This document shows, piece by piece, positions 15,540 to 25,509 of a stretch of DNA of 64,000 bases. Source of the stretch: Pseudobdellovibrionaceae bacterium (GTDB lineage Bacteria > Bdellovibrionota > Bdellovibrionia > Bdellovibrionales > Bdellovibrionaceae). Each line of letters begins with the position of its first letter. The first letter of the stretch is position 1. Both the position numbers and the translations under genes were made by a program. The notes below the pieces were generated by a model. It had not been told where the DNA came from. It did no database searches and worked only from the letters and a program-made list of their open reading frames with translations. Where the stretch lies: assembly GCA_019637955.1 (NCBI GenBank), contig JAHBUS010000004.1, forward strand, positions 62,001 through 126,000, written 5' to 3'.

Positions 15540-15947
15540 CTATTGAGCTTTTTCGATGCTGATCGCGAATTTTTTGACGCCCGAGCCTTTGACGAGGTCG
15601 ATCACGCGCACGACCTTGCCGTACTCAACGCCTTGATCGGCGGCGATAATCGCCTGGATCTCGGGATTGTTCATCGCCAGCTCCTGGGCTTTGGCCTTGA
15701 TCGCATCTTCGTCGGCCTTGGTGCCGTTGAGGACAATCTCGCCCGCCTTCGTGATCGAGATCGACAACTGGCTCGGTGTCGACGCCTCACCCGAGGCCGC
15801 TTTCGGCAGATTGACGTTGATCGAAGGCTTCATGAACATCGGTGCGGTCACCATGAAAATGATCAAAACCACGAGAACGATGTCGACCAAAGGGACGACG
15901 TTGATATCGGAGATCGCCTCGTCATCGAACGAGAGTTTGCCCCCCAT
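15540..15947 (-). CDS. exbD: ExbD/TolR-family biopolymer transport protein
   Basis: 135 residues. One membrane helix (about 20-40) containing the essential aspartate D22 in VPLVDIVLVVLIIF, followed by a periplasmic domain of normal size. With ExbB it forms a proton-driven motor that energises outer-membrane transport or envelope constriction. It starts 3 bases after the exbB stop. ExbD versus TolR cannot be decided from sequence alone; no pal, tolA or tolB is in view, so exbD is used as the general name. Confidence 0.93.
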   Translation of the reverse strand: MGGKLSFDDEAISDINVVPLVDIVLVVLIIFMVTAPMFMKPSINVNLPKAASGEASTPSQLSISITKAGEIVLNGTKADEDAIKAKAQELAMNNPEIQAIIAADQGVEYGKVVRVIDLVKGSGVKKFAISIEKAQ

Positions 15948-15950
15948 GAC

Positions 15951-16580
15951 TTAGGCTCCTTTTTTCTTCGCGTACGCGAGGGACAGTTCTTTGACTGATT
16001 CCAAGCTCTGCAAAATGCCCTTCACTTGACGCTGGAAGTAGTTGTAGGCCACGACCGCGGGGATCGCCACGAACAGACCGGCCGCCGTCGCAACGAGCGC
16101 GAGCGAGATGCCCGCCATCACCGTCTGTTGGCCCGCATCGCTCGACTGCGCCAAATCCTGAAACGCCTTCATGATCCCCAAGACGGTTCCGAGCAGCCCA
16201 ATGTAAGGCGCATTCGAACCGATGGTTGCCAAGAAGCCGAGCGAACGCTCGAGCTCGGGACGCTCCGACAGGGAGAACGTGTTGAAAACTTCTTCGAGGC
16301 CTTTTTCGCCGCTTTCTTTGATATGGCGGAGAGCGAATTTGGCCGCGCGGCCTTCGATGGTCGAATCGTCTTTGGCGATGTCCTCGACCTCATCGAGGTT
16401 GTGGGACTGCAAAGCCGACTTCACGCGCTCGCGGACTTTGCGGCTGTCGGAAGCGACTTTTCGCAGCGAAAAGAAGCGCTCCAGAATCAAACCGATGCTG
16501 ACGATGCTCAGCAAAACCAAAAGAAGCAGGATGGCTTGGTCGGCGATCTGCGCAATCGCGAAAACTCGTTCACTTAACAT
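15951..16580 (-). CDS. exbB: ExbB/TolQ-family proton channel
   Basis: 209 residues with three membrane helices: one near the N-terminus (about 14-32) and a C-terminal pair. The conserved core is ATIGSNAPYIGLLGTVLGIM, then AGISLALVATAAGLFVAIPAV with the channel threonine region. GGAGAG precedes ATG 16580. It is the stator subunit partnered with ExbD downstream. The gene starts divergently from the sulfatase-like lipoprotein gene at 16643. Confidence 0.94.
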   Translation of the reverse strand: MLSERVFAIAQIADQAILLLLVLLSIVSIGLILERFFSLRKVASDSRKVRERVKSALQSHNLDEVEDIAKDDSTIEGRAAKFALRHIKESGEKGLEEVFNTFSLSERPELERSLGFLATIGSNAPYIGLLGTVLGIMKAFQDLAQSSDAGQQTVMAGISLALVATAAGLFVAIPAVVAYNYFQRQVKGILQSLESVKELSLAYAKKKGA

Positions 16581-16642
16581 TGCTCTCTCCCTTTTTTCTC
16601 ACCATGATCGAACACGGAGGCTCCGCCGGAGCGGGCATTAAG

Positions 16643-18172
16643 ATGATCAGTGTACGTTCGTTCCCAATCAGGGGTCAAATCTATCGCGCATTCAAATTTG
16701 GGCTGCTGCTGGTCATGCCGCTCATGGCCGGTTGTTACAGCAAACCCCAAACTTTGCCGTCGGTTCTCATCCTGGCCGTCGAGAACTATGGTCCAGAAAC
16801 CTCGCTGTGTTCTTGGGAGTCGAACCCGCAGGTCCAGTCGGCGCTGCGTTTATTTTGCAACGAAGCGGTCGAGATCAAGTCTTTGCAGGCCTCGCACCGC
16901 GATTCGGTTCCCGCACTCGCCTCCATCCTGCACGGCGCTTCGACCGCCGATCTGAAAATCGACAACAATCAGCAGTTTGTTTCGGCGGACTTTGAAAGCT
17001 ATGCCGAAAAGTTTCACGCCATCGGCGCGCGCACGGCCTTTTTTGCCTCATCACCGCTCTTCATGCGCCGCACGGGACTGGCTCAAGGCTTTGATCAGTT
17101 CGAAGAGACGCACAAGATCGAGCAGCTCCGATGGGGCCGCACCCCCGAACAGGTGGTTCAGAGCTTTCTCAAGTGGAAGTCCGAACTCAGCGCGCGCACG
17201 CCCTTCTACGCCGTGCTCACCTTCTCGGATCTCAACTTTCCTTGGATCCGAACCACGAGCCTTTCGGGTCAAGAGCGCTCGCGCAATCTCGAAAGCCAAG
17301 CCGAAGCGATCGAAGAGGCCTGGATCTCGCTGTTTCAAAAACTCAGTTCCGATACGGACTGGAACAACACGTGGATTTTGGTCGTCGGCACCCAAGGCGT
17401 GGCTTCAAGCCTCAACCCGCATCAGGTCTACGGCGCGGTCCGCGTGCCGCCGCCGATGAAATGGGCTTACGATGCCGGTCAAGAGCTGAACGCGGTTCAG
17501 CTCTCCAAGCACTTTCACGAGCAGGTGCTGGGCACACCCACACCGCGCACGCCCGACCCCATCCCGGTCGATGCCGACGATCTTGATCCGCGCCCGCGCG
17601 AAGATTTTTGGATCAAGCTGAGCGCCTCGGCCGAACGCGAAAAAAAACTGCTCGCCTTGACCGCGCAAAAACCTGGTACCGCTTGGTGGGCCCTTTTCGA
17701 AGAACTCGAGCAAGGCAAGTCGCGTGAGTTCAACCGCTTGGTGGAACGCGAAAAACTCGACATTGACAGCACCGCGTATTGGGACCGCATTCTGTTGAAA
17801 CGCAAAGACCAAACGCTTCAAGACACGTGCATCCGCATGATCGACTTGAAAATCTTCGAGGGCGGCGGCGCGCGCACCTGCGAATCGCCAACGCTGCTCG
17901 GACTTCAAGAGTGGTTCCGCGCGCTCGAAGACTCGGCGAGCGATTCTAAAATCAAAGAAGCCCGCCAAAAAACCTTGCGGGCCTGGCACGAGATCCGTTC
18001 GGTCCGTCAGATCCACCTGCTCAACCGAGCCCTGGGAGGCGTTCTCGATCTCCCCCTGGGCGTGGGCCGCGAAATCCTGCGCACCGAAATGGCCCTACGT
18101 CTTCCCGAGGCGCAAATGCAAAAAGCCTGGCTCGACAAAGTCGAACCAGGCTTCAATGAATCCACAGATTAA
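16643..18172 (+). CDS. Lipoprotein with sulfatase/alkaline-phosphatase-like fold
   Basis: 509 residues from ATG 16643. The frame is open to 16580, but this start yields a lipoprotein signal with lipobox LMAGC (C31). Residues about 37-100 follow the sulfatase pattern: PSVLILAVENYGPE in place of the metal-binding N-terminal strand, then SVPALASILHG where sulfatases have x-P-S-x-x-S-L-L-T-G. A later TWILVVGTQGVASSL resembles the second half of the fold. The usual Asp-Asp metal pair and the C/S-x-P-x-R formylglycine motif are absent, so catalytic activity is doubtful. Possibly an envelope hydrolase remnant or binding protein. Confidence 0.6.
   Translation: MISVRSFPIRGQIYRAFKFGLLLVMPLMAGCYSKPQTLPSVLILAVENYGPETSLCSWESNPQVQSALRLFCNEAVEIKSLQASHRDSVPALASILHGASTADLKIDNNQQFVSADFESYAEKFHAIGARTAFFASSPLFMRRTGLAQGFDQFEETHKIEQLRWGRTPEQVVQSFLKWKSELSARTPFYAVLTFSDLNFPWIRTTSLSGQERSRNLESQAEAIEEAWISLFQKLSSDTDWNNTWILVVGTQGVASSLNPHQVYGAVRVPPPMKWAYDAGQELNAVQLSKHFHEQVLGTPTPRTPDPIPVDADDLDPRPREDFWIKLSASAEREKKLLALTAQKPGTAWWALFEELEQGKSREFNRLVEREKLDIDSTAYWDRILLKRKDQTLQDTCIRMIDLKIFEGGGARTCESPTLLGLQEWFRALEDSASDSKIKEARQKTLRAWHEIRSVRQIHLLNRALGGVLDLPLGVGREILRTEMALRLPEAQMQKAWLDKVEPGFNESTD
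18119..18153 (-). terminator. Minus-strand terminator inside the end of the opposite gene
   Basis: AAGCCTGG (18123-18130) pairs with CCAGGCTT (18146-18153) and an inner TCGAC/GTCGA stem. On the minus strand it is followed by T5. It should end the transcript of 18192-18704, yet it lies wholly within the last codons of the plus-strand gene. Confidence 0.7.
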
Positions 18173-18815: not shown

Positions 18816-19481
18816 TCAAGATTCGGGGTTGGTCAGGCCGCACCAAAAAGCGAGATCCGATTGTGACTCAATCAGAGACTGCGCCAGGGCTTCGAACGAA
18901 GGGTTCTCGCTCCAACGGGGCCAGGCGCTCTCGAAGCTCTGGGCGAGAAACAGGAGTTGATCGCCCGCCAGCATGCGTGCGGACCCGGTTTGAACGTTTG
19001 TTTGCTGCGTGAGCCCCAGGCCCGCCATCGCGAGCGGCGGCAATGCGGGGTCAAAGACCGAGAGGTCCGAGCCCACCGCGAGAGGCGCCACGCGGCCCTT
19101 GCGGATCAAATAGAGATTCGGTTGCCCCACTTGCGCCCACGAGATCAGCTGACCTTGGCGCTGAATCACCAGCGCCTCGATGAGCAGCCGCGCCTGCTTG
19201 AGGTTTTCTTGTTTGTAGATGAACTGCGAGGTGACCTGCAGCGCCGACTTGAGTTTGCTACCCGCTTCGGCGTTCGGCGCGTCTTTTGACACGATCGACG
19301 TGGCATCGGTGCCTTCGGTTTGCTCGACCTGCTCCAGAATCAAACGCGCGGCCTTTTCGGCCTCGCCTTGGGTGGTCCACGATGTCGCCAAAATCAGAAG
19401 CTGGCTTTCGGGGCGGCTCAAGATATAGGGCCGCGGACGAAAGATTTGGCCCGGATTGTAGGAGCGGCTTTCAAGATCCAT
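18816..19481 (-). CDS. Degenerate PP2C-like protein, last gene of FHA operon
   Basis: 221 residues, no signal or membrane helix. Residues about 110-185 follow the order of a PP2C-type phosphatase core: W-A-Q-V-G-Q-P-N-L-Y-L-I-R-K-G in place of the vGdSr..l.r.G strand pair, then LAGLGL-like and L-A-G-D-Q-L-L-F-L-A-Q-S where active enzymes have GD.lll.sDG. The metal-binding aspartates are replaced, so it is probably not an active phosphatase. The start is 3 bases after the stop of the double-FHA gene. FHA proteins are commonly paired with PP2C phosphatases, which supports this reading; it remains an inference. Confidence 0.5.
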   Translation of the reverse strand: MDLESRSYNPGQIFRPRPYILSRPESQLLILATSWTTQGEAEKAARLILEQVEQTEGTDATSIVSKDAPNAEAGSKLKSALQVTSQFIYKQENLKQARLLIEALVIQRQGQLISWAQVGQPNLYLIRKGRVAPLAVGSDLSVFDPALPPLAMAGLGLTQQTNVQTGSARMLAGDQLLFLAQSFESAWPRWSENPSFEALAQSLIESQSDLAFWCGLTNPES

Positions 19482-19484
19482 GCG

Positions 19485-21437
19485 TTAAAGCGCCCCATAT
19501 TTTTTGAGCTTCATTTTGGCTTTTTCGTAATAGTCCTCGCCCGGAAGGCTCTGATCCAAGATCTTGCGCCATTTGTTTTTCGCGGTCTCGACTTCGCCGA
19601 CGCTCTCTTCGAGAATGCCCTCTTGGTAGAAGGTCATCATCTGTTTGCGCAGCTCGGTCATCATCGCTTGGTGACGGCCTTTGAGCACTTCGTTGTCGGG
19701 ATTGATCTTAATCCCCTCACGCAGAATCTCGATGGCTTTTTTAAGCGCGCCCGAACGGTACGCGACTTCGGCGTTCTTCTCGGCCTCGGCCTGCTGCGAT
19801 TCGATGCCCGCCTCGAGCGAGGCGATCTTGCGGCGTGAAATGCCGTTCAGATTGCCCGGGTCGGGCAATCCGGTTTTCAAGACTTTCTTGTACGCCGCGA
19901 TCGCGGGAATCGGCAGGCCTTGCTTTTCGACCTTCACCGCCCGCTCATAAACCGCCCGGTGCGCCGCCACTTTGGCTTCGTACTCTTTTTGGTTGGCGAT
20001 CTTCATGTTGCGTTCGGTGGTGATGCGCTCGACTTCGTTTCTCAGCGAAACGATCGAGGGGTGTTCGGGATTGAACTCCATGATCGAGGCCAAACAGCCC
20101 TCGAGCCAGGCCGAATCCGAATTCTCATTCAAAGCGGCCCGGCACTCGGCCACTTGCTTTTGGATCTTTTCTTCGGTGGCCGCGCGCTGGCGTTCGGCCG
20201 CCTCGTTCTTTTCACGCTCGGCAAGAATCGCGAGACCTTGGTTGGCCGTCTCTTCGATCTGTTTCGAATCTTCGTAATAAGGAATGATCTGGTGCAATTT
20301 GATCACTTCTTGGCGCGCGAGTTCGTAACGACCTTGGGCGATCAACGACTGCGCGGTCAAGTAAAGCTGCTTGACGACCTGCTGCTTGTCCGGCGGCAGT
20401 TTGTCGAACGGTGTCTGAATCTTGGTGATCGCATGTTTGCTTTCGTCTTCCTGACCGAACACGCCGTACATCACGGCGAGGAAGATCACGCAGATCATCG
20501 CCAGACGAGCGGGCGTGAGGCCGGGGATGTGCTTGCCGAAAAGCTTCATTCCGGGTTTGAGCATCGCCGGTCCCGAGATGGGCATCCCGTTGGCGTCAAA
20601 GCCCGCAAAGCCTTGCGCGGGCGAGGCGCCCATATTGGGTCCCGCTCCGAACGAGTCGCTATACGCCCCACCGGCGCCGACGTTCTCTTCGTTGTAATTC
20701 ATCGGCACCAGGAGCGCCGGATCGACCTCTTGCAAACGCTGCTCAAAGCCCGCATCGCGCAGCTCGAAGTGCAGGGACCAATCGGCCACCGAGATCACAT
20801 CGCTCGATTGCAGCTGCGTCCAATCTTCAACCGCCAAGGGGCGGCCATTGTGAAGGGTGACGTTGATGCTACCGAGATCGCGCACGTAGTACGCATCGTC
20901 TTGCTTCTGAACTTCGAATTGCTTGCGGCTAATGCGCGGATTGTCGATATAGATCGAGCATGTCGTGTCGCGCCCGCCGATCCAAGCTTGCCCTTCGAGT
21001 TTGAAATTCTGAACCGCGCGGCCTTGGTGGTCGACCAGTCGCAGGTAGGCGTTCGAAGGCAGATAACCGATATGGGTCTTGTCCTCTTCGGACCCGGTGC
21101 TGGCGTCGGGGAGGTCTTGATTGTGGGCGATCTGGCCGCCTTCGTCTTCGTTCTCGAAAACGAATTCGTAAGGCGGAACCGCGAAGGTCGTGCCGTCGCG
21201 AAGCGCGAAGATCGATTGCCGTTCGCCATTCTTGTAGAGCTCGCCGTAGCGCGAAAGCACCTCGACGATCCACTGGCCTTCGGCGTAGCGGATGCGGAAA
21301 TGCTGCCGGGAAATCCCGCGCTCCGGAGCGAGCACGACGTCGCAAGTCTCACCGCGCCCCACGAGAAGCTCGTGCGACTCGGCCAGATCGTGCTGAACCG
21401 TAAACTGTCCATTGAGGAAGACCTTTAACCGTGCCAT
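19485..21437 (-). CDS. Membrane protein with two FHA domains and a TPR/coiled-coil tail
   Basis: 650 residues. FHA domain 1 spans about 20-95 (GR at 28-29, SRQH at 44-47); FHA domain 2 about 130-225 (GGR at 154-156, SRKQF from 170, then LGSINVTLHNG). FHA domains bind phosphothreonine. A Gly/Pro-rich linker leads to one membrane helix (about 310-328). The rest is helical with TPR-like repeats (QSLIAQGRYELARQEVIKLH, KAIEILREGIKINPDNEVL) and charged coiled-coil stretches. The N-terminal FHA part should be cytoplasmic and the helical tail periplasmic. It starts 2 bases after the preceding FHA gene. Confidence 0.88.
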   Translation of the reverse strand: MARLKVFLNGQFTVQHDLAESHELLVGRGETCDVVLAPERGISRQHFRIRYAEGQWIVEVLSRYGELYKNGERQSIFALRDGTTFAVPPYEFVFENEDEGGQIAHNQDLPDASTGSEEDKTHIGYLPSNAYLRLVDHQGRAVQNFKLEGQAWIGGRDTTCSIYIDNPRISRKQFEVQKQDDAYYVRDLGSINVTLHNGRPLAVEDWTQLQSSDVISVADWSLHFELRDAGFEQRLQEVDPALLVPMNYNEENVGAGGAYSDSFGAGPNMGASPAQGFAGFDANGMPISGPAMLKPGMKLFGKHIPGLTPARLAMICVIFLAVMYGVFGQEDESKHAITKIQTPFDKLPPDKQQVVKQLYLTAQSLIAQGRYELARQEVIKLHQIIPYYEDSKQIEETANQGLAILAEREKNEAAERQRAATEEKIQKQVAECRAALNENSDSAWLEGCLASIMEFNPEHPSIVSLRNEVERITTERNMKIANQKEYEAKVAAHRAVYERAVKVEKQGLPIPAIAAYKKVLKTGLPDPGNLNGISRRKIASLEAGIESQQAEAEKNAEVAYRSGALKKAIEILREGIKINPDNEVLKGRHQAMMTELRKQMMTFYQEGILEESVGEVETAKNKWRKILDQSLPGEDYYEKAKMKLKKYGAL

Positions 21438-21439
21438 GA

Positions 21440-22603
21440 CTAGTACTTCCCTCTTAATTTAATCTCACACTCGTTGTGGTACTGCAAAGCCTCGCGTCGG
21501 ATGGGATCTCGCTCGTCCTTCTTCATTTTGATGACGGTCGAGTAGTATCCCATGCACAGGCGGTAGTTGCGCACGCCGTAGTACCGTTTTCCTTGAATCA
21601 TATTGAACTGAATCTGCTCGTCGAACTTGCGCTTGGCGAGCGTGTAGTATTTGCGGGCCAGCTCGTGATTGGGGTAGAACGAGAGCGCCGCCTGGAATTC
21701 TTCCATCGCGCGCACGTACTGCCCCTGGCGGTAGTCGCGGAAGCCGCGCAGGTACTGCTCTTGCGAGAGACGGTACTGAATCGTGTCCTGCCCCTTTTTT
21801 TCGATCTCTTTCATCGCCTTGTCGTATTCGCTTTGCGATTCGGTGATCGCCACTTCGGTCGAAACCACATCGCGCAGTTTCACCTCACGGCGCTTGCGGA
21901 TCTGATCCTGCGAGAACAGGTAAGCCCCGCCCAAGACGATCACACCCACGATGGCGTAGAGCTTGAAGCGGCCGCCGCCTGCCGACGGGGGACGGTAAGT
22001 CGAACCGCCAGCGCCAACGGAACGCGCGCCCGCCGGAGCTTGCTGGTTCCAGGCGCCAACGCCGCCGCCCTGCTGGGGCATCCCCACCGCCTGCGACTGC
22101 GGTTGGGTCATCGCGTTCGACGTGAAAGATGCCGGTGCCTGAGCGTTCACGCCCGGAACCGGCGGAAAGCTCGCCTGCGCCGGAGCCGTGGCGACCGGCG
22201 CATTTTGCAAAGAGCCCATGGGTTTGAGCGCACCGACGGTGGCTTGCGGAACCACGCTTAAGTTTGCTTTCGCTTCGGCCGGACGCTCGAAATTGACTTT
22301 GAGTTCGGTTTCGCCAAAACGGATCGTGCCGCCGGGTCGGATGGACTTCTCGTTGACCACTTCGCCGTCGACGGAAATCGGGTTCTTCTGACTCAAATTG
22401 CGGACGATGACTTGATTCATCGACACGATCAATTCGATGTGCTGACGGCTGATTTTCACGTCTTGCGCAAAAATCAGATCGTTCTCGGGGCCTCGGCCCA
22501 ACGAGATCTGTGCCTTTTCGAAATCGTGGGATTGGCCCGCGTTCGGCCCCTTCACGACTTCGATCGACACGTTCAACACTTTCAGAAGAGGGGCTGCACT
22601 CAC
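21440..22603 (-). CDS. FHA-domain membrane protein with TPR-like tail
   Basis: 387 residues. One FHA domain at about 10-110 (SLGRGPEND at 34-42, SRQH at 52-55, SQKNP loop). Residues about 120-210 are a low-complexity Pro/Gln/Ala/Gly linker. One membrane helix at about 214-232 is followed by a helical tail with TPR-like spacing (LRGFRDYRQGQYVRAMEEFQ, LSFYPNHELARKYYTLAK). The layout matches the larger FHA protein downstream, suggesting that they form a common complex. GTG 22603 overlaps the upstream stop in GTGA, so translation is coupled. Confidence 0.88.
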   Translation of the reverse strand: MSAAPLLKVLNVSIEVVKGPNAGQSHDFEKAQISLGRGPENDLIFAQDVKISRQHIELIVSMNQVIVRNLSQKNPISVDGEVVNEKSIRPGGTIRFGETELKVNFERPAEAKANLSVVPQATVGALKPMGSLQNAPVATAPAQASFPPVPGVNAQAPASFTSNAMTQPQSQAVGMPQQGGGVGAWNQQAPAGARSVGAGGSTYRPPSAGGGRFKLYAIVGVIVLGGAYLFSQDQIRKRREVKLRDVVSTEVAITESQSEYDKAMKEIEKKGQDTIQYRLSQEQYLRGFRDYRQGQYVRAMEEFQAALSFYPNHELARKYYTLAKRKFDEQIQFNMIQGKRYYGVRNYRLCMGYYSTVIKMKKDERDPIRREALQYHNECEIKLRGKY

Positions 22604-24270
22604 GCCGCGCCCCCTTCAGCCGACGCCGCCGGCATGATCGTGATGAGATAATATTCGATGTCGCCGCCGGAACTCGCGAGCGCCTGGCAGCTCAGGGTGA
22701 ACAAATGACCCGACAACTCGAGATTGTCAGAATTGATCTTGTTCATGTTCATCTCGGCCTGATTCATCAGGTGAGTGAAGTTCTGTTGCATGGCCGGATC
22801 CGGAATCTCCGAAACTTTTGCACCCACGACCTTCTCCGAGGTGATCCCGGTCAAGCCCTCGAACGCGTTGTTCAAGCGCACCACTTGGTGGTCGCGGGCG
22901 ATCAGGATGCAGGGGTAGCCGATGAGCTGCATGAGATTGAAAATTTCCTGGTCGCGCGCGCCTTTGCCCGTGACCGACATGTCGGGAGACGACCCGGCCG
23001 CCGCACGCGCCAGCAGGCTGTTGACGTTGGTCATCAGGTTCTGCATGACCGGCAAGTTGAACTGAATCGACGCTTGGTCACGGCCCTCGCGCAGCGCCAA
23101 GTCCAGCTCGTTGTTCAAGAGTTTGAACGGATGTTCGATCAGTTTATAGAGGAAGAAGAACAAAATCCCGCCGATGATGAACGCCAGGAACAGCATCTGG
23201 ACGAACAGGCTGAACGCGCGTCCGTCGTCGAAGGCGAGGCTGCCGGGATTGTAAATCACGATGGCATGGGCTTTGGCGGTGTTCTGTTGAAGTTCGGGAT
23301 CAAAGACAAGCACCGGCACCGCCGCGGCGATCTGTCCGGTCACGAGTTCATCCGAAAATTCTTTGGGCTGCCCGCGCACCTTGCGCACAAAGCCGGTTTC
23401 ACGCGGCGCCGAGCCCGTGCGCTCGGGAGGAGCCACGATCAGGCCGTCTTTCGAAACGATATAAACGTCCTCGATCCCCTCTTCGCGCAAAACCATATCG
23501 GTGCTGAAGCTCGAAAGGTCGTTGGAGCGGATGATGCGTTCATTGGCCGAGGCCAGTGAGCGGGCGACGGTCAAAGCCCGGCGCAGCGACTCGTTCTGGA
23601 TGCTCTCGGAGGTGATTTGCTTCATCGGAATGACCGAGAGCAGCGTCACCAAAACGATGTAAATCCCGATGAAACCGAGGATCACCTGCTTGAAGTCGAA
23701 GACCTTCGGCAAGTTGTACACGCCCGGAAGCGCGACGTTCTCGACGAAGTCTTGCGACTTCTCGATCACGCTTTGAACGTGGCCCTGAATGTTTTTCGGC
23801 GGCGGAGGCGGCGGTGGGCCGTCCTGCTCCATGATGTTCATCATCGGCGCATCGAACGCATTTTGCGCGGAGGCCCCCGGCATTGCCGGCACTTGCGCGC
23901 CACCTGGATGCGGCACCATGGCTCCGCCCGCCCGCACGGGAACTTGGGCTCCGGCACGAGGCAAGGCCAAAACACGGCTTCCGCCGTAAGGGACGATCTC
24001 AAAAAGAACGTTGTGAATGCTGATCTTGTCGCCCGCTTTGGCCAGGGCGCCCTTGATGCGCACGCCGTTCAAGAACGTTCCGTTCGACGACTGCAAGTCG
24101 TTGAGCAGAATCTTGTCGGCCGCGACCATGATCTCGACGTGCTCTTTCGATACGCCGGGCACCGCGAGCTGCAAGTCGCTGGTCGCGGCTCGGCCCACTC
24201 GGTTGGCGCCGACTTTGAGAGGCACGATCTGTCCGGCCAGAGGGCCGTTCAGGAACTTAAGACCCCACAT
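22600..24270 (-). CDS. FHA - Cache-like sensor - PAS membrane protein
   Basis: 556 residues. A canonical FHA domain fills residues 1-95 (VGRAATSD, SKEH at 41-44, SSNGTFLNG at 61-69). A Pro/Gly linker with a PPPPPPPK run (about 152-159) follows. Two membrane helices (about 196-214 and 353-376) flank an extracytoplasmic region of about 140 residues resembling a single-Cache sensor (EDVYIVSKDGLIVAPP). A HAMP-like segment and a PAS-like domain (about 430-550; VRLNNAFEGLTGITSEKVVG) end the protein. There is no kinase, cyclase or methyl-acceptor output, so output is probably by protein contact. It overlaps its upstream neighbour by 14 bases. Confidence 0.85.
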   Translation of the reverse strand: MWGLKFLNGPLAGQIVPLKVGANRVGRAATSDLQLAVPGVSKEHVEIMVAADKILLNDLQSSNGTFLNGVRIKGALAKAGDKISIHNVLFEIVPYGGSRVLALPRAGAQVPVRAGGAMVPHPGGAQVPAMPGASAQNAFDAPMMNIMEQDGPPPPPPPKNIQGHVQSVIEKSQDFVENVALPGVYNLPKVFDFKQVILGFIGIYIVLVTLLSVIPMKQITSESIQNESLRRALTVARSLASANERIIRSNDLSSFSTDMVLREEGIEDVYIVSKDGLIVAPPERTGSAPRETGFVRKVRGQPKEFSDELVTGQIAAAVPVLVFDPELQQNTAKAHAIVIYNPGSLAFDDGRAFSLFVQMLFLAFIIGGILFFFLYKLIEHPFKLLNNELDLALREGRDQASIQFNLPVMQNLMTNVNSLLARAAAGSSPDMSVTGKGARDQEIFNLMQLIGYPCILIARDHQVVRLNNAFEGLTGITSEKVVGAKVSEIPDPAMQQNFTHLMNQAEMNMNKINSDNLELSGHLFTLSCQALASSGGDIEYYLITIMPAASAEGGAA

Positions 24271-24604
24271 TGAGCTGGTCTCCTACGCGCAGGCCGAGAC
24301 TTTTGATCCGGCCGCTTTTCATTTCGATCACCGACGTCGCGCCCCACTGGGGCCAAACCACTTTTCCGGGCCGGACGTCTTCGACCAGGGATTTCACTCT
24401 CATTTTCGAGTCCAAAAACACGCAGTCGATCGGGTACGCCATGAAAAAGGTGTGCACGCTGTTACAAGCGTGAATCCACATCCCTTGCTCCTCGGCGAGG
24501 CCTTTGGTTCCGAGCAGACCCTTGAGCCTTGACATGAACGAGGCCGCGACCGTCAGGTCGCTGAGCAAGACTCGATCCTCAGGCTGGCGAGTGAGCTGAG
24601 CCAT
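24257..24604 (-). CDS. DUF192-family protein
   Basis: 115 residues from ATG 24604, which overlaps the tadC stop by one base (TGATG) and has GGAGGG 8 bases upstream; a GTG at 24607 is an alternative. The family signature is clear: SRLKGLLGTKGL, W-I-H-A-C-N-S-V-H-T-F-F-M, PIDCVFLD and the closing DQL. DUF192 proteins are small beta proteins of unsettled function, often found near secretion or pilus genes. Many family members are exported, but no signal peptide is seen here. Confidence 0.85.
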   Translation of the reverse strand: MAQLTRQPEDRVLLSDLTVAASFMSRLKGLLGTKGLAEEQGMWIHACNSVHTFFMAYPIDCVFLDSKMRVKSLVEDVRPGKVVWPQWGATSVIEMKSGRIKSLGLRVGDQLNVGS

Positions 24605-25509
24605 CACTGGAACCCTCCGCTCACCATGTTCACGGCCACGGGCCCGAAGACCACCAAGAAAACCGCCGGAACGATGAAGAAGATAATCGGAAACAGCATC
24701 AACTGCGAGGCGCGCGCACCGGCCTTCTCGGCGCGCACGAAGCGCTCGAGACGGATTTGCACCGATTGGTCTTTTAAGACCTGCGAGATCGAAGCGCCGG
24801 TCGCGTCGGCATCGACCAAAACCGCCACGAAGCTGGTGATTTCCATCAGATCGGAACGGTTCGCCAGTCCGCGAAGCGCGGTCGAGCGCGAGGCGCCGAG
24901 TTTGATGTCTTTGAGCACGATCGCGAGTTCTTCGCCGAGCGTGCTGCCTTCGGCCTTGTCGACGATCCGCTGGATCGCCGAGATGAAGTCAAGACCGGCT
25001 TCAGTCGAGAGCGCGAGCAGATCCGCGAAGAACGGCAGATCGGCACGCATGCGCACCTCACGCGAATCCTTTTCGCGGCGGGCGTAAAACTCGGGGAACA
25101 TCCAACCAGCCGGAATGAAAAGAATAAACAAAATCGGGTGCAGGCCCGCTTCCAACGCGAAGTTCATGACGCCCAAAAATCCGGGAAATGCGATCCCCCA
25201 AAAAATTTGCAGTCCGATAAATTCATCGACATTGAGCTGGCGAGAAAGCCCGGCGGTCAAAATCAGGCGTTCGATTTTTTTACGGTGCTTCTTGTTTTTA
25301 ATCCGCAAAGCGTGTTGGAGCGTAAACTGGTGCACGAGCGGACGCGACCAGTTGATCAGCGCCGACTTCGATTTCTCGGGTTCGTTTCCGCTCGCCCAAG
25401 ACAGCAGCTCTTTGTCGGTATTGTTCGTCAGCAAAATGGAAACGAACGAATACACGGCGTAAGCTCCGAGGAGCAGCCCCGATATCAGCAGTAATTCTGC
25501 GCTTCCCAT
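24604..25509 (-). CDS. tadC: TadC-like type II secretion F-domain protein
   Basis: 301 residues from ATG 25509 (GGAGACGAA upstream; the frame opens earlier but without signal or start support). It is an inner-membrane platform protein of Tad/Flp pilus type: an N-terminal helix, a basic segment, a helix pair around 105-150, then the F domain with D-L-P-F-F-A-D-L-L-A-L-S-x-E-A-G-L-D and two C-terminal helices. It is the first gene of the six-gene operon down to 18816. No TadA ATPase, TadB, secretin or pilin is in the window, so these must lie elsewhere or this is a specialised, pilin-less branch. Confidence 0.85.
   Translation of the reverse strand: MGSAELLLISGLLLGAYAVYSFVSILLTNNTDKELLSWASGNEPEKSKSALINWSRPLVHQFTLQHALRIKNKKHRKKIERLILTAGLSRQLNVDEFIGLQIFWGIAFPGFLGVMNFALEAGLHPILFILFIPAGWMFPEFYARREKDSREVRMRADLPFFADLLALSTEAGLDFISAIQRIVDKAEGSTLGEELAIVLKDIKLGASRSTALRGLANRSDLMEITSFVAVLVDADATGASISQVLKDQSVQIRLERFVRAEKAGARASQLMLFPIIFFIVPAVFLVVFGPVAVNMVSGGFQ

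Follow-up and report, generated by a model that had tools for sequence, protein, structure and literature searches.

In Bdellovibrio bacteriovorus, the six genes bd0470–bd0475 form an operon headed by tadC (Duncan 2019 PMC6561027; Abulude 2025 PMC12034629). Transposon mutants of tadC (bd0470) fail in attachment, killing and rounding of prey, and those of bd0474 attach to prey yet neither kill nor round it; a two-hybrid test shows binding between Bd0474 and Bd0075, an interaction between Bd0473 and Bd0475 is predicted, and Bd0475 figures as a hypothetical protein (PMC6561027, PMC12034629). The published Tad operon of this species, bd0109–bd0119, encodes TadA, TadB, RcpA and RcpC, flp pilin mutants show normal attachment, and TadV has been reported missing from Bdellovibrio genomes. 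The Kil system of Myxococcus xanthus is also a Tad-like machine needed for prey killing; it is spread over two clusters and is rich in FHA proteins, with both platform genes in one cluster and an ATPase, KilF, that carries an N-terminal FHA domain (Seef 2021 PMC8460266).

The window analysed here (the whole 64-kb stretch of DNA) contains a counterpart of each of bd0470–bd0475, arranged as in that operon, in a bacterium of a different genus of the same family (30–64% protein identity to the copies in the relative genome G036, with 64% for tadC). Three of the G036 proteins measure 387, 674 and 228 aa, against 386, 674 and 228 aa in the published operon. The operon and its role in predation are already known from B. 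bacteriovorus, since bd0470–bd0475 has been published with its predation phenotypes; what is new is that the last gene encodes a predicted phosphatase relative that has lost its catalytic metal sites.

Table 1. Genes of the operon in transcription order, with window coordinates.
Gene	Product	Length (aa)	Coordinates	Strand	Evidence	B. bacteriovorus counterpart
1	TadC, Tad inner-membrane platform protein	301	24604..25509	-	PF00482 T2SSF, E 3.8e-17	Bd0470
2	DUF192 protein	116	24257..24607	-	PF02643, E 6e-20; second position conserved	
3	FHA protein with PAS-like C-terminus	556	22600..24270	-	PF00498, E 1.4e-13; PAS_4 sub-threshold	
4	FHA – TM – TPR-like tail	387	21440..22603	-	PF00498, E 1.6e-9; weak TPR_2, E 5e-4	Bd0473
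5	Double FHA – TM – TPR-like tail	650	19485..21437	-	PF00498, E 7.7e-25, two stretches; weak TPR_2, E 5e-6	Bd0474
6	Predicted PP2C-fold protein without metal-binding aspartates	221	18816..19481	-	Profile, structure, motif loss	Bd0475

All six open reading frames lie on the minus strand between 18816 and 25509 and form one tight operon (Table 1). The tight packing described by a first-pass annotation of this DNA was borne out: from the tadC start, an ATG at 25509, the successive intergenic gaps are -4, -14, -4, +2 and +3 bases. The three FHA products are membrane proteins, as that annotation had also proposed, with FHA matches in Pfam for all of them and transmembrane segments by hydropathy at residues 196–214 and 355–373 of gene 3, 213–231 of gene 4 and 310–328 of gene 5. 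Its claim of periplasmic TPR-like tails on two FHA proteins stands in part, weak TPR_2 matches being present in genes 4 and 5 and the periplasmic siting being a prediction. Whole-genome searches agreed with it in placing every match to a TadA-type ATPase, to TadB, to a secretin and to a Ser/Thr kinase outside the window.

The six-gene order is kept in relatives from several families of the order, with maf divergent upstream of the block and ExbB/ExbD downstream. Chance cannot account for this arrangement, since it is found again throughout the order and in the majority of the loci sampled from other lineages of the phylum. In the window, the operon has downstream of it a pair of ExbB and ExbD genes and a divergent gene for a lipoprotein-like product (15540–18172); these genes are kept beside it throughout the sampled order and not outside it.

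Among 60 genomes of the order, strong matches to TadC and to TadB were each found in 59 and a match to gene 5 in 57, nearly all genomes encoding one TadC and one TadB. The two genes were adjacent in none of the 60 and were separated by at least 155 kb when on the same contig. One genome listed as 100% complete (G040, L129) has a Tad cluster of the type described below, with no TadC or gene 5 seen, through either gene loss or an assembly gap.

In the genome of the window there are six T2SSF domains. Two PilC/GspF-type proteins account for four of them, and the other two belong to the window TadC and to a TadB encoded on another contig, C13, so that this TadC and this TadB are the only single-domain T2SSF proteins of the genome. 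The Tad/Flp platform pair is therefore present and split between the window and C13. Beside tadB on C13, and preceding it, are genes for a prepilin peptidase (PF01478; L056:2384-3004), which heads the cluster, two single-TM pseudopilin-like proteins, RcpC/CpaB, a secretin and the TadA/CpaF ATPase, the latter as a 750-aa fusion of a ParA/TadZ-like domain to TadA (L056:7069-9321); no TadC was found in this cluster. The prepilin peptidase sets the cluster apart from Bdellovibrio, where it is reported missing, and none was seen in the Tad cluster of G036.

Outside the order, 38 loci were testable, one of them being G062, for which L119 and L120 were used, in addition to 37 others. DUF192 and three FHA genes follow tadC in 35 of these, and in 14 of the 38 the six-gene block is directly followed by a Tad operon, i.e. 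by at least three of RcpC/CpaB, secretin, TadZ-TadA and TadB on the same strand within ~20 kb. A Tad operon is thus joined to the block at the level of the phylum, but not among the closest relatives of the window, the two halves always being apart in the order. Such direct linkage was one of the two observations that the first-pass annotation had named as refuting its own reading. Most simply, a single ancestral cluster would have existed and been split later, both in the order to which the window belongs and in certain lineages outside it.

The operon accordingly has these parts in this order, is paired one to one with a remote TadB/TadA cluster, and occurs undivided from it in other lineages. 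Given one TadC and one TadB per genome, the block joined to a Tad operon elsewhere in the phylum, and the published predation phenotypes of bd0470 and bd0474, the operon probably supplies one half, the inner-membrane platform and its regulation, of a single pilus machine of Tad/Kil-like type, the genes for the other half lying at a distant site of this genome. The first-pass annotation had instead taken TadC to be isolated and the complex to be possibly distinct from standard Tad; TadC is not isolated, as TadB, TadA, secretin, RcpC and prepilin peptidase are encoded on C13 of the same genome and a Tad operon comes directly after the six genes in other lineages. A stand-alone assembly platform, in which TadC would serve gliding or secretion and work without TadA and TadB, could account for the constant distance of tadC from tadB and tadA in the order, for the conserved ExbB/ExbD pair downstream, and for the abolition of attachment by loss of tadC and not of flp. 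However, each genome has just a single TadB and a single TadC, and lineages outside the order have this block directly joined to the Tad operon; we regard such a platform as very improbable and rejected it on the linkage data. Since tadC mutants fail in attachment while bd0474 and flp mutants attach, tadC may nevertheless do more than assemble the Flp pilus. The Tad cluster of G040, with no TadC seen, likewise speaks against a single machine.

The features shared with Kil are a Tad core in two clusters and several FHA proteins. Unlike in M. xanthus, TadB and TadC fall in separate clusters here, and the domain joined to the ATPase is ParA/TadZ-like, the N-terminus giving a CbiA/ParA match and no FHA match. 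Because this ATPase lacks an N-terminal FHA domain, the predicted machine is classed from its proteins as Tad and Kil-like, not as a Myxococcus-type Kil.

The Arg and Ser residues that contact phosphothreonine are 94–100% conserved in all four FHA domains of the operon, inside and outside the order. In gene 3, R27, S41 and N63 are conserved; R37 and S52 of gene 4, and R28, S43, R156 and S170 of gene 5, reach 100% in the order. The Asn element is found at 100% in gene 3, 84–94% in gene 4 and 91–100% in the second FHA domain of gene 5, and is absent from the first. The earlier count of four FHA domains, all with binding motifs, consequently holds for Arg and Ser in every domain but not for Asn in the first domain of gene 5; a general lack of binding residues, its second stated refutation, is not what the alignments show. 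These residues make the domains putative phosphothreonine binders, and we infer from them a phospho-control of the pilus. A Ser/Thr kinase scored above the Pfam cut-off in 59 of the 60 genomes of the order; in the window's genome, C7 encodes the one such kinase and C9, outside the window, the one PP2C that passes the cut-off, the six-gene operon having no kinase gene. The missing kinase gene and the missing Asn in the first FHA domain of gene 5 count against the phospho-control. The combination of an FHA protein and a PP2C-type protein at an envelope machine resembles the threonine-phosphorylation pathway of T6SS (PpkA-PppA-Fha), from which the locus differs in lacking a kinase in the operon, in having a phosphatase relative without catalytic residues, and in the machine being a Tad pilus.

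In T3SS there are FHA folds that do not bind phosphopeptides. The main rival to phosphothreonine binding is that the FHA folds of the operon, like those of YscD-type ring proteins in T3SS, are structural scaffolds of an envelope machine and have nothing to do with phosphorylation. This role is suggested because genes 3, 4 and 5 all also match PF16697, the Yop-YscD cytoplasmic domain, and it would fit a phosphatase relative (gene 6) that lacks catalytic residues in this order. The contact Arg and Ser, conserved as they are in all four domains, speak against it, as do the syntenic gene 6 copies elsewhere that score as PP2C, and we consider a purely structural role somewhat improbable.

Gene 6 has no Pfam match, and a phmmer search of the PDB with its single sequence gave no match. 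A 12-member profile of the family, however, matched the PP2C tPphA in the PDB (E 4.9e-4), and the best matches of its AlphaFold model were PP2C proteins with both Foldseek (E 7e-8) and VIA-align (Z 13.7), the solved PppA being among the structural matches. The model itself is of low confidence (pLDDT 55, pTM 0.59) because its input comprised only three sequences. The profile did not match the genome's own PP2C significantly (hhalign probability 0.9%), so that the case for the fold rests on the PDB profile, the model matches and the syntenic PP2C homologues. The window protein and nearly all sampled members of the order have other residues in place of the metal-binding aspartates of the DG, GDSR and SDG motifs, for which reason gene 6 is not classed as a phosphatase. 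In the syntenic copies outside the order, the DG aspartate is nearly always kept and those of SDG and DN often, the GDSR aspartate being lost there too, and two of four copies exceed the PF13672 cut-off. Gene 6 is thus predicted from profile and model to have a PP2C fold that lacks the metal-binding aspartates in the order; of the "PP2C-like remnant" first described, the fold stands, but this is a conserved gene and no debris.

Most likely, the TadC platform and its FHA/pseudophosphatase module couple the assembly of the predation pilus to Ser/Thr phosphorylation, the phospho-control being what we infer here. On the TadA motor, TadC would pair with the TadB encoded at a distance, and the FHA proteins would sit in the inner membrane with their FHA domains in the cytoplasm and their TPR tails in the periplasm. 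The FHA domains may bind phosphothreonine marks, by which a contact or envelope signal would gate pilus assembly, and gene 6, with a PP2C fold and no catalytic metal sites, may bind or shield a phosphoprotein rather than dephosphorylate it. That the predation pilus of the order is gated by a phosphothreonine circuit, in which the conserved pseudophosphatase, related to the PP2C found in this position in other lineages, has turned into a phosphoprotein adaptor for the FHA-TadC platform, is a tentative proposal that we rate as rather unlikely. The phosphorylation-responsive platform on a Tad protein proposed at first pass stands in part, as a platform gene joined to an FHA module of the phosphopeptide-binding type and serving a pilus/predation complex. 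The locus bears on how contact with prey is signalled to the Tad-type machine that predatory bacteria then deploy. The conserved FHA residues and the difference between PP2C and pseudophosphatase copies provide concrete residues for testing phospho-control in B. bacteriovorus, where the little-studied Bd0475 offers a handle on it.

Several further arrangements of Tad-related genes were observed. On C13, the gene directly after tadB (L056:10226-11884) has a 552-aa product in which RHS repeats and DUF6531 are present. The window's genome has a second T2SSE-type ATPase beside a second secretin on C7 (373353-374818), a contig from which a T2SSF protein is absent. The TadZ-like and TadA domains form a single protein in relatives as well, and in G062 TadB is additionally fused to TadZ-TadA in a frame of 919 aa (L120:2619-5375). 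In G077, a second pair of TadC-like and TadA-like proteins is encoded on the opposite strand near a complete Tad locus (L122:15223-17850).
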